A DNA stretch of 64,000 nucleotides from Spirulina major PCC 6313 (lineage in GTDB: Bacteria; Cyanobacteriota; Cyanobacteriia; Cyanobacteriales; Spirulinaceae): assembly GCF_001890765.1 (NCBI RefSeq), contig NZ_KV878783.1:4430771-4494770 (forward strand), given 5' to 3'. The position numbers and the translations under genes were made by a program. The notes under the pieces were generated by a model. It did no database searches. It was not told the DNA's origin and saw nothing but the letters and a program-made list of their open reading frames with translations. Each line of letters opens with the position of its first letter. Position 1 is the first letter of the stretch. Positions 8,980 through 39,965 of this stretch are shown here, piece after piece.

Positions 8980-10404
8980 CTACGCATCGTAATAGAGCGC
9001 AAACTCATAGGGATGGGGCCGCAAGCGCATCGGGTTGATCTCCGTATCGATCTTGTAGGCGATCCAGTTTTCGATGAACTCCGGCGTAAAGACCCCCGTG
9101 CCCGTCAAAAACTCATGATCATTCTTCAAGCATTCCAACGCCTCTTCCAACGACCCCGGCGTACTCGGAATCTTGCTCAACTCCTCAGGGCTGAGATCAT
9201 AAATATCCACATCCAAGGGAGAACCCGGATCAATTTGATTCTTGATCCCATCAATCCCCGCCAGCAGCATCGCCGCAAACGCCGTATAGGGGTTCGCCGT
9301 CGCATCGGGACAGCGGAACTCTAACCGTTTCGCCTTCGGACTCGGCCCAGACAGAGGAATTCGCACCGAAGCCGAACGATTCCCCTGGGAATAAGCCAAG
9401 TTCACCGGCGCTTCAAACCCAGGCACCAACCGCTTATAGGAGTTGATCGACGGGTTCGTAAATGCCAACAAAGCAGGCGCGTGCTTCAGAATCCCCCCGA
9501 TGTACCACAGCGCCGTTTGGCTGAGGTTGGCATAGCCATCGGCACTAAAGAAGGTCGGCTCACCATTTTTCCAGATCGACTGGTGGGTGTGCATCCCAGA
9601 ACCATTGTCATTAAACAGCGGCTTCGGCATAAACGTCGCCGTCTTGCCGTATTTCTTCGCCACATTTTTGACCACATACTTATAGGTCATCAGGTCATCC
9701 GCTGCTTGGATCAGCGTATTGAACCGAATGCCCAATTCGTTTTGTCCACCGGTCGCCACTTCATGGTGATGCTTCTCGATGGGAACCCCACAGGCTTTCA
9801 TCGTCAGCAACATTTCGGTGCGGATATCCTGCTGAGTATCCGTCGGGCCAACGGGGAAATAGCCTTGTTTGTAACCGGGCTTATGTCCTAAGTTCCCTCC
9901 CGCTTCGATGCGGCCGGAGTTCCAACGACCCTCGACGCTATCAACGTGGTAGTAACCTTCATGTTCATTTTGGTCGAAACGCACATCATCGAAGAGGAAA
10001 AATTCCGCTTCAGGGCCAAAAAATGCTGTGTCTCCGATCCCGGTTGAACTGAGGTAGTCAACGGCTTTCATGGCGATGCTGCGGGGATCACGGGAGTACC
10101 ATTCTCCCGTGCGCGGCTCCTTGATGCTGCAAATCATGCTCAAGGTTTTTTCTTTGTAGAACGGATCAATCCAGGCGGTTTTCGGGTCGGGAACCATGGA
10201 CATATCCGATTCGTTAATCGCTTTCCAGCCGCGAATACTGGAGCCATCGAACGCCACACCATCGACAAAGGAATCTTCGTCGATTTGGTTTTGATAGAAC
10301 GAGCAATGCTGCCACGTTCCGGGCAAGTCAATGAACTTGAGGTCAATGATCTGGATGTCTTCATCCTTGATCATCTGCAATACGTCTTGAGGGGTCTCTG
10401 GCAT
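8980..10404 (-). CDS. glnA: Type I glutamine synthetase
   Basis: 474 residues, the usual cyanobacterial GlnA length. It makes glutamine from glutamate, ammonia and ATP, the first step of the GS-GOGAT cycle. Visible signatures include the N-terminal [15 protein letters not shown], the catalytic region [13 protein letters not shown] and the ATP-site region GSGMHTHQS. The ATG at 10404 is preferred over an upstream in-frame start because it gives the family N-terminus ([13 protein letters not shown]) and has AAGGA just upstream. A canonical NtcA promoter sits 50-95 bp upstream. Confidence 0.97.
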
Positions 10405-37176: not shown

Positions 37177-37196
37177 GGGTGGGCAACGGCCCACCC
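37177..37196. terminator. Hairpin resembling the icd terminator
   Basis: GGGTGGGC-AACG-GCCCACCC, 8-bp stem. It occupies the same position relative to the duplicated icd end (37207) as the palindrome at 38508 does relative to the true icd end, so it is probably its diverged copy. It may also end the LysE transcript. Confidence 0.55.
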
Positions 37197-37206
37197 TGTG
37201 TTAATG

Positions 37207-37321
37207 AGGCAGTTAGAAACCGTCGATGATCGCTTGGGCGAATTCGGAGCATTTCAAGGGTTCGACGGGGGGGGTCAGCATCCGGGCGAGGTCGTAGGTG
37301 ACTTTTTGGGAGGCGATCGCA
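37207..37321. repeat. 115-bp direct repeat, copy of icd 3' end (left)
   Basis: Identical over 115 bp to 38541-38655, which is the last part of icd including its stop codon. Here it is an orphan fragment with no gene body attached. It ends in a HIP1 site plus A. Together with the right copy it brackets the two nuclease genes. Confidence 0.95.
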
Positions 37322-37379
37322 GCATTCGTCTGAGTTAAAAAGCCGATAAAATAACTCATATCTACCCATTACCAGTACG

Positions 37380-37784
37380 TTGACGAGATTTGAGTTCATA
37401 GTGGATGGGCCACCTGTATCGCAACAGACTCGTAGGCGTGAGCGCCTTAGAGAGTGGCAAGGAGTGGTACGACAGGAGGCAGAAAAATATTGGCCACCAG
37501 GACAAAAAGTGGCTACACGTTCAATGATGCTACAAATAACCTACTTCTATGATACTGGTGCAATCGATGTGGACAATATCATCAAGCCGATCCAGGATGC
37601 CATAATTGGATTAGCCTACATTGACGATGATCAAGTCACTGATGTTCTCGCCAGGAAGCGGAACTTATCGGGTAACTTTAAAGTAAAAAATATGACCGTA
37701 ACCTTAGCAGAAGGCTTTTCTCGTGGCAACGAATTTCTGCACATTATTGTCGCTGATGCTCCTGACCAAGAGGTATTGATCTGA
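37380..37784 (+). CDS. RusA-family Holliday junction endonuclease
   Basis: 134 residues, starting at a TTG (37380), which gives the family N-terminus FEFIVDGPPVSQQTRR. The catalytic acidic cluster is clear: DTGAIDVDNIIKPIQDAI and GLAYIDDDQVTDV, matching the D-x-D-N-x2-K-x3-D plus DD pattern of RusA. RusA resolves Holliday junctions and is usually phage- or island-borne. The last base overlaps the ATG of the next gene, so the pair is coupled. It lies inside the icd-repeat-bounded segment. Confidence 0.82.
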   Translation: MTRFEFIVDGPPVSQQTRRRERLREWQGVVRQEAEKYWPPGQKVATRSMMLQITYFYDTGAIDVDNIIKPIQDAIIGLAYIDDDQVTDVLARKRNLSGNFKVKNMTVTLAEGFSRGNEFLHIIVADAPDQEVLI

Positions 37785-38464
37785 TGGTAACTTCAAGTGA
37801 GATCTTAGAAAGAAAGCAATTACTGAAACTAGCAGAAGAATATCGTAATCAGGGTTATGAGGTTTCTTTTCATCCAAATCCTGAAGACTTACCTGATTTT
37901 CTTGGGAATTATCGCCCTGATATGATAGCGCGCAGGGGAGATGAATCCGTAGTCATTGAGGTGAAGTCACGACGTTCACTGGACTTTTCCTCTCGACAAC
38001 AACTGCGAACTTTAGCCCAATCTGTAGAGCAGCATTCCGGTTGGCGATTTGAATTCGTGATGACTAATCCAGAGGATGCTGTCTATTTTCCCGCAGCTGA
38101 ACACTCTCTTCAGCAAGATGAAATAACAACAAGACTCTCAAGAGCAAGGCAACTGACAACACAACATCCAGAGTCAGCGATCCTTTATGCTTGGTCTCTT
38201 GTTGAGGCAACCTTAAGGCTTGTGACGGAATATGAGGGGCTGAGTTTGCAAAGACTGGATTCGCTTTATTTGGTGAAACAGTTAGTCACTGAAGGTGTGA
38301 TTTCTCGACCTGAGTATCAGTTATTGATGAATGCCCGTTCATTACGGAATATAGTTGCTCATGGCTTTAAAACAGCTCAATTGACGCAAGAGTCTGTATC
38401 TGAGCTGATCGATATGACAGAGCAACTATTGAATGCTTTGCACTCAAACACAGCGGCAAACTAA
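37784..38464 (+). CDS. PD-(D/E)XK nuclease-like protein with HEPN-like C-terminus
   Basis: 226 residues in two parts. Residues 15-105 carry a restriction-endonuclease-type core: D46 in YRPDMIARR and E59-V-K61 in VVIEVKSRR, the order expected for PD-(D/E)XK and close to the archaeal Holliday-resolvase-like (AHJR) group. Residues 115-222 are all-helical and contain R188-N-I-V-A-H193, an R-x4-H motif as in HEPN ribonucleases. The function of this fusion is not known to me. It follows the RusA gene with a 1-bp overlap. Confidence 0.7.
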   Translation: MVTSSEILERKQLLKLAEEYRNQGYEVSFHPNPEDLPDFLGNYRPDMIARRGDESVVIEVKSRRSLDFSSRQQLRTLAQSVEQHSGWRFEFVMTNPEDAVYFPAAEHSLQQDEITTRLSRARQLTTQHPESAILYAWSLVEATLRLVTEYEGLSLQRLDSLYLVKQLVTEGVISRPEYQLLMNARSLRNIVAHGFKTAQLTQESVSELIDMTEQLLNALHSNTAAN

Positions 38465-38507
38465 TAACTCAAATGCAGCAGACAGTTGCAAGTTATGAAG
38501 AGAATTT

Positions 38508-38533
38508 GGAGGGTGGGCGATCGCCCACCCTCC
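38508..38533. terminator. 26-bp perfect palindrome, bidirectional terminator
   Basis: Perfect palindrome with half-site GGAGGGTGGGCGA, lying between convergent genes (the nuclease pair on the left, icd on the right), 14 bp past the icd stop. Its centre is a HIP1-like GGCGATCGCC. AT-rich flanks (AATTT, ATTTGTT) on both sides fit termination in both directions. Confidence 0.75.
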
Positions 38534-38540
38534 ATTTGTT

Positions 38541-38655
38541 AGGCAGTTAGAAACCGTCGATGATCGCTTGGGCGAATTCGGAGCATTTCAAGGGTTCGAC
38601 GGGGGGGGTCAGCATCCGGGCGAGGTCGTAGGTGACTTTTTGGGAGGCGATCGCA
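38541..38655. repeat. 115-bp direct repeat, right copy inside icd
   Basis: Last 109 bp of icd plus 6 bp beyond the stop; identical to 37207-37321. See the left copy. Confidence 0.95.
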
Positions 38656-39965
38656 TCCCCTAAGCCCTGCTTAATTAAGTCTGCGGCCTCTTGCCAGCCC
38701 ATGAACTCCAGCATCATCACCCCAGAGAGAATCACCGAACCGGGGTTAATCCGATCCAAGCCGGCGTGTTTCGGTGCGGTGCCGTGGGTGGCTTCAAAGA
38801 TGGCGCAGGTGTCGCCAATATTCGCCCCTGGGCCCATCCCAAGACCGCCCACGATCGCAGCGGCGGCATCGGATAGATAATCCCCGTTGAGGTTCATCGT
38901 GGCGAGGATGGAATATTCATCGGGGCGGGTTTGGATCTGTTGGAAGATGCTGTCAGCGATGCGATCGTTCACCATCACCTTCTCTTTCCACTGGCCATCG
39001 CCGTGGCTGTCCCAAATTGCTGCAAGGACAGATTTCACCTCTTCACAGATGACCTGTTGTTTTTCCGGGGTAAGAGAATCATAACCGGGGTCGATCTGGT
39101 GGGCGTTGGCTTCGATGGAAATATCGGGATTCGCTTCTTTGTTGCTCAAAATCCAGGATTCCCGTTCCGTGACGCATTGGTCGCGAAACTCCGTCGTGGC
39201 CAATTCATAACCCCAATCCCGAAACGCCCCTTCGGTGTATTTCATGATGTTGCCCTTGTGGACGAGGGTCACCTGTTGTTTGGCGGGGGGCAGACGCAGG
39301 GCGTGGAGGATGGCGCGGCGCACGAGGCGCTGGGTGCCGGTTTTACTGATCGGTTTAATCCCAATCCCGGCATCGAGGGGAATTTGTTTTTTGCCATGTT
39401 CGGGGGTGGCGGGGATCAGGTCGTCGTTGAGGTAGGCGATCAGTTTTTGGGCGATCGCACTGCCTTCGCGCCATTCAATGCCGAGATAAATATCTTCGGT
39501 GTTTTCCCGATAGACGATGATGTCGAGTTTTTCGGGGGTTTTGTGGGGGGACGGTGTGCCGGGGTAGTAGCGACAGGGACGGACGCAGGCGTAGAGGTCG
39601 TTGATCTGCCGCAGGGCGACGTTGAGGGAGCGAATCCCGCCGCCGACGGGGGTGGTGAGGGGGCCTTTGATCGCGATCCCGTAGTCTTTGATGGCGGTGA
39701 GGGTATCTTCGGGCAGGTATTGATAGGTGCCGTAGAGGTCACAGGCTTCATCGCCGGCGTAGACTTTGAACCAGTGGATTTTGCGATCGCCCCCATAGGC
39801 ATGGGCCACCGCTGCATCAATGACTTTTTCCGTGGCGGGCCAAATATCGACCCCCGTGCCATCGCCACGAATAAAGGGGATAATCGGATCATTCGGCACA
39901 ATCGGGTTGCCGTTTTCAAATGTGATGGGCGTGCCAACAGTCGGGGGAGTGATTTTTTCGTACAT
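38547..39965 (-). CDS. icd: NADP-dependent isocitrate dehydrogenase
   Basis: 472 residues. The substrate motif [12 protein letters not shown], phosphate-site region [18 protein letters not shown] and cofactor-side [15 protein letters not shown] are intact. It makes 2-oxoglutarate, the carbon skeleton for ammonium assimilation and the signal sensed by NtcA/PII, linking it to glnA in this window. The 3' end is the site of the duplicated 115-bp repeat. I found no GTA-N8-TAC box upstream. Confidence 0.95.

Follow-up and report, generated by a model that had tools for sequence, protein, structure and literature searches.

Fusions of HEPN-M/DUF86 domains to a REase resembling archaeal Holliday junction resolvases appear in Table 1 of Anantharaman et al. 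(2013; PMC3710099), and in conflict systems HEPN domains frequently serve as RNase effectors (PMC3710099). With respect to mobile cassettes, IntI and attC were known earlier in Cyanobacteria (PMC8352920, PMC2426708), TA cassettes are known to have promoters of their own (PMC11023631), and the storage of phage-defence cassettes in integrons has been reported in work cited in PMC13092281. The locus analyzed here lies in a stretch of 64,000 nucleotides of Spirulina major PCC 6313 (hereafter the window), where a preliminary description had proposed two ORFs with a one-base overlap, combining RusA, AHJR-like REase and HEPN domains. Both ORFs are present and overlap in this way; the features of the locus are listed in Table 1.

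Table 1. Features of the RusA/REase-HEPN locus (positions are those of the window).
Feature	Position	Strand	Basis or remarks
Left copy of 145-nt direct repeat	37177..37321		terminator and truncated icd 3' end
Inserted cassette body, 1189 nt	37322..38510	+	43.1% G+C, against 51.7% for the window
-10-like element TAAAAT, 5' of rusA	37347..37352	+	conserved among cassette copies
rusA-type junction endonuclease gene	37380..37784	+	TTG start, 134 aa; PF05866 match
AHJR-like REase fused to HEPN, gene of 226 aa	37784..38464	+	PF18743; AlphaFold2 model; fold matches
REase domain, residues 1-125	37784..38158	+	PF18743 extent, motifs
REase motif codons D46, E59, K61	37919-37921; 37958-37960; 37964-37966	+	
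HEPN domain, about residues 128-226	38165..38461	+	R-x4-H conserved among relatives
HEPN motif codons R188, H193	38345-38347; 38360-38362	+	
attC left arm; right arm absent	38460..38483	+	just after second stop codon
Right copy of 145-nt repeat	38511..38655		continuous with intact icd
icd (isocitrate dehydrogenase)	38547..39965	-	3' end duplicated

The first protein is a predicted RusA-type junction resolvase, according to its match to PF05866 (34.7 bits, with a cut-off of 22.8) and the presence of the catalytic-type residues D63, D65, K69 and D82, arranged as D-x-D-N-x2-K with a later D. The second matches the AHJR-like REase family PF18743 over its first 125 residues (E=8.7e-49), with the D..ExK motif present. 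Its C-terminal half gives solely sub-cut-off Pfam matches of HEPN type (HepT-like, DUF4145 and RiboL-PSP-HEPN), and a homologue encoded on a Ti plasmid scores above the HepT-like cut-off. Structure prediction, which had been suggested as a check, yielded an AlphaFold2 model with pLDDT 84.1 and pTM 0.51 (alignment of 24 sequences). In Foldseek searches with this model, one half was best matched by HEPN/HepT chains and the second half by archaeal Hjc or R2 endonuclease, albeit with weak E-values (about 0.006-0.05) for both. The domains proposed at the outset were therefore recovered by Pfam in the case of RusA and the REase and by motif, model and fold search in the case of HEPN, and residues D46, E59, K61 and R188-x4-H193 were all found in the second protein which, given its R-x4-H motif and predicted HEPN fold, is a putative HEPN ribonuclease.

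The two genes almost certainly constitute a conserved pair. When the positions of AHJR loci were compared with those of RusA genes in 386 cyanobacterial genomes, 34 of 42 AHJR loci had RusA directly upstream, and 34 of the 36 RusA genes of this family adjoined an AHJR gene; one of the two exceptions (G170:C7:168691-169071) is a lone RusA gene with no detected AHJR neighbour. REase-HEPN proteins were present in 39 of these genomes and this RusA family in 33 (co-occurrence by genome, p=8e-39 in a Fisher test that ignores shared ancestry). RusA was also found in 49 of 54 named GTDB loci, including Poribacteria, Latescibacterota and Caldilineaceae, and Agrobacterium, Azospirillum and Rhizobium have the same overlapping pair on plasmids. 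Of 72 loci, 43 show the one-base overlap, and the pair is kept down to about 27% identity. This degree of conservation, the co-occurrence and the dN/dS values, which were mostly below 0.4 and higher in a few noisy close pairs, indicate that the association is not due to chance. In some groups the pair is fixed in place: 21 loci of the Nostoc group share one common site and 10 of the Microcoleus group share another. RusA has been lost or broken in some relatives (L047, L036). A phage origin of the pair was considered and rejected, since no phage or IMG/VR relatives were found.

Additional genes or domains accompany the pair in certain relatives. On Agrobacterium/Rhizobium plasmids, a gene for a GHKL-type ATPase, perhaps a third component, is located just 3' of the pair (L106, 5646-7580; L108, 7241-9220). 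Four distant relatives (L027, L028, L030, L031) have a C-terminal extension that by eye resembles RelE/ParE-type toxins, and in L025 the RelE/ParE-like stretch is a separate downstream gene (2332-2730); the extension had no Pfam support in the two relatives scanned.

The degree of residue conservation differs among the three domains. RusA residues D65 and D82 are found in all 66 relatives, K69 in 65 and D63 in 63, and in HEPN R188 is kept in 70 and H193 in 71 of the 71 relatives with letters at those positions. In the REase domain, 14 of 76 relatives have A, V or K in place of E59, and 10 have R, T or N in place of K61. The combination of DNA cleavage and RNase activity put forward in the preliminary description is not strictly required, as several lineages have lost the active site of the REase and retain HEPN and, mostly, RusA. 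Judging from these substitution patterns, the chemistry of RusA and HEPN would appear to be required and that of the REase optional. Because the catalytic residues of the REase decay and those of HEPN and RusA do not, this domain probably acts mainly as a DNA-structure binder. A diverged pair with E59K and K61T in the REase and an intact HEPN motif is found in three genomes of one genus (L048-L050).

Complete cassettes containing the pair were identified in other cyanobacteria. In Lyngbya sp. HA4199-MV5 (L053/L186) it is flanked by attC sites within an array adjacent to intI (IntI, 475.6 bits); in Aliterella atlantica (L054) it has a full attC, after which comes an acetyltransferase-like cassette that likewise possesses an attC, and in a Leptolyngbyaceae MAG (L084) it forms a single cassette with attC. 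All three cassettes start with GTTAGTC. In an alignment of 15 attC sites, 90.8% of the cells were paired, 12 pairs had changed on both sides and two unpaired bases were conserved; shuffled and slid controls lay far below this. The corresponding covariance model gave 70-88 bits directly 3' of the gene in these three copies, bearing in mind that sites included in the model score high by construction, and 35.8 bits for a decayed attC in L032, which had been left out of model building. Ten genomes contain both IntI and AHJR, with 3.1 expected (p=3e-4, Fisher test, shared ancestry ignored), and in the protein tree the window copy belongs to a well-supported clade of 11 with integron-borne copies from several families (99/92). 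The Nostoc copies were rejected as intact cassettes, as they show solely decayed attC-like similarity. Fragments of integron integrases, several of them with stop codons, were observed in other cyanobacteria that have the pair or its AHJR-HEPN half (G199, G062, G167, G231 and G076), suggesting lost integrons.

The host genome has an integron of its own, with a full integrase gene at G000:C2:2699159-2700103 (TIGR02249, 469.5 bits, cut-off 265) and an attC 3.4 kb from it (2695637-2695723, L163); the gene just 5' of this attC encodes an 857-aa ParA/AAA-type ATPase. The total of attC sites in the genome is seven, the other six (L205-L210) being scattered along the chromosome (G000:C2) far from intI, at 2468954, 4732027, 1665364, 1662275, 4649476 and 991997. 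Beside these stray sites are genes for HipA, a HaeII-type restriction enzyme with a C5 methylase, a PemK toxin and a zeta-like kinase. The overall picture is one of cyanobacterial integrons that carry the RusA/REase-HEPN module and shed it into the chromosome.

The window copy is located about 1.77 Mb from intI and not in an array next to it. A TANNNT element is present at -55..-15 of rusA in 56 of 72 loci, and the TTG start in 59 of 72. The attC left arm is 22/24 identical to the attC of Aliterella, a match that beats all 505 control windows of the surroundings, and is ranked first in 3 kb by the covariance model, albeit at a low score (9.3 bits, E 0.29). At the other end, the first bases of the cassette are replaced by the icd repeat and there is no G^TT left boundary; 115 nt of the left repeat (37207-37321) are 100% identical to the right copy. 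As the left attC arm alone is kept and sits between icd duplicates, the last move of this copy was not a clean IntI event, and we infer an integron cassette whose later move or rearrangement at icd came about other than through IntI. GTTAGGC at 38538 was discarded as an IntI junction and regarded as coincidental, the terminator palindrome being part of the duplication; the genome contains only four copies of this palindrome, of which two are at this locus. No clean empty icd site was found in relatives, in which the neighbours of icd differ and lysE is absent nearby. L041 and L061 also have long flanking repeats, of 137 and 73 nt respectively; the local repeats of L055 were dismissed as larger and unrelated to the cassette. 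In L041, what by eye is a csaB-like N-terminal fragment separates the left repeat from rusA (9175-9453, cassette-oriented), a hint of an earlier location of that copy. The compact mobile cassette that had been proposed is thus borne out as an integron-type gene cassette, to which the attC remnant and the icd duplication are new additions, and an integron-cassette origin of the module is very probable.

The explanation that best accounts for these data, and which we consider reasonably probable, is that of an integron cassette of toxin-like or defence type that has a promoter of its own, RusA and the REase acting on branched DNA and HEPN cutting RNA. In this two-gene toxin-like/anti-phage module, RusA and the AHJR fold would bind branched DNA, for instance recombination intermediates of phages or plasmids, and may also cut it; this engagement would gate the HEPN domain, whose cleavage of RNA would stop growth. 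The chances that the HEPN RNase is the effector seem slightly better than even; those of a toxin-like/defence module with a HEPN effector and both junction-nuclease folds as DNA-structure sensors are roughly even. A more specific proposal, somewhat less likely than not, is an undescribed immune or addiction system carried by integrons, whose RusA and resolvase-like REase would sense branched DNA and switch on the HEPN RNase, coupling recombination intermediates to the cleavage of RNA. If HEPN were gated in this manner, recombination of phages or plasmids would be sensed by a new route. A role in defence or as a toxin is plausible in view of the conserved promoter of the pair, the constrained HEPN motif and the sister cassettes with HipA, HaeII-type restriction and PemK. 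Conversely, the long retention of the pair by vertical descent at single sites, in 21 Nostoc and 10 Microcoleus loci, does not resemble fast-turnover defence genes and counts against defence, and the incomplete attC of the window and its last insertion, not cleanly attributable to IntI, count against the cassette reading. The absence of phage or IMG/VR relatives and the loss or breakage of RusA in L047 and L036 also weigh against the explanation. PADLOC gave no significant model for either protein (solely Cas4, at E 0.015-0.05), no cognate methyltransferase is present in the pair or adjacent to it, and the expectation of a defence-island context failed, as the genome-neighbourhood survey found no such islands around the cyanobacterial copies. 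This two-nuclease module is conserved in several phyla and missed by standard defence catalogues.

The main rival of the toxin-like/defence reading is a role in repair, by which the pair would be a domesticated module for the repair or recombination of branched DNA, with RusA and the Hjc-like domain resolving junctions and HEPN as a structural dimeriser. The presence of two junction-nuclease-type domains, the invariance of RusA catalytic residues, the long vertical retention in Nostoc and Microcoleus and the position of a Ti-plasmid copy beside ligD, imuA, DNA polymerase Y and error-prone polymerase genes are consistent with it. We nevertheless regard such a role as rather unlikely, given the patchy distribution of the pair (39 of 386 cyanobacterial genomes), its carriage by integrons and plasmids, the repeated loss of REase catalysis and the maintenance in nearly all copies of R-x4-H, dispensable for a dimeriser. 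Whether defence or addiction, rather than repair, is the role of the pair is for us an evenly balanced question.

Less likely still is a selfish nuclease element spreading by means of its own nucleases, like R-M genes with long target duplications. The flanking duplications of 145 nt in the window, 137 nt in L041 and 73 nt in L061 correspond to the type of insertion described for R-M systems (PMC3031569), but they are limited to 3 of about 30 site clusters, other copies are explained by attC/IntI, and no empty site was found for comparison. The module could also be an inert passenger, a stranded cassette lacking a selected function, in accordance with the truncated attC of the window and with rusA or ahjr being broken in L036, L067, L069, L100, L101 and L104; dN/dS below 0.4 in most pairs and the conservation of catalytic residues and operon overlap across phyla make this very improbable.

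With regard to known systems, the HEPN-M/DUF86-REase fusion (PMC3710099) listed in 2013 is of the same type as the second protein of the window. The main text of PMC3710099 mentions neither RusA nor integron carriage of the fusion, and in the open-access literature searched neither the RusA pairing nor its carriage by integrons was found described. The RusA/REase-HEPN content was likewise not found in the papers searched on cyanobacterial integrons (PMC8352920, PMC2426708). The conserved pair is apparently undescribed, the REase-HEPN fusion and cyanobacterial integrons themselves being already known. The TA and phage-defence cassettes of chromosomal integrons (cited in PMC11023631 and PMC13092281) are likewise small, with their own promoter and attC; the present module differs in its new gene content and, in the window, in lying outside the integron and having a damaged attC. 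A long direct duplication also flanks R-M insertions (Nobusato et al., 2000, as cited in PMC3031569), whereas the window module has no methylase and has integron ancestry. Finally, the pair shares with Type VII HepT-MntA the R-x4-H of HEPN RNases, along with the Foldseek matches to HepT chains, but it has RusA as the partner instead of an MNT antitoxin, an extra REase domain, and F195 in place of the tyrosine of the HepT R-x4-H-x-Y motif.
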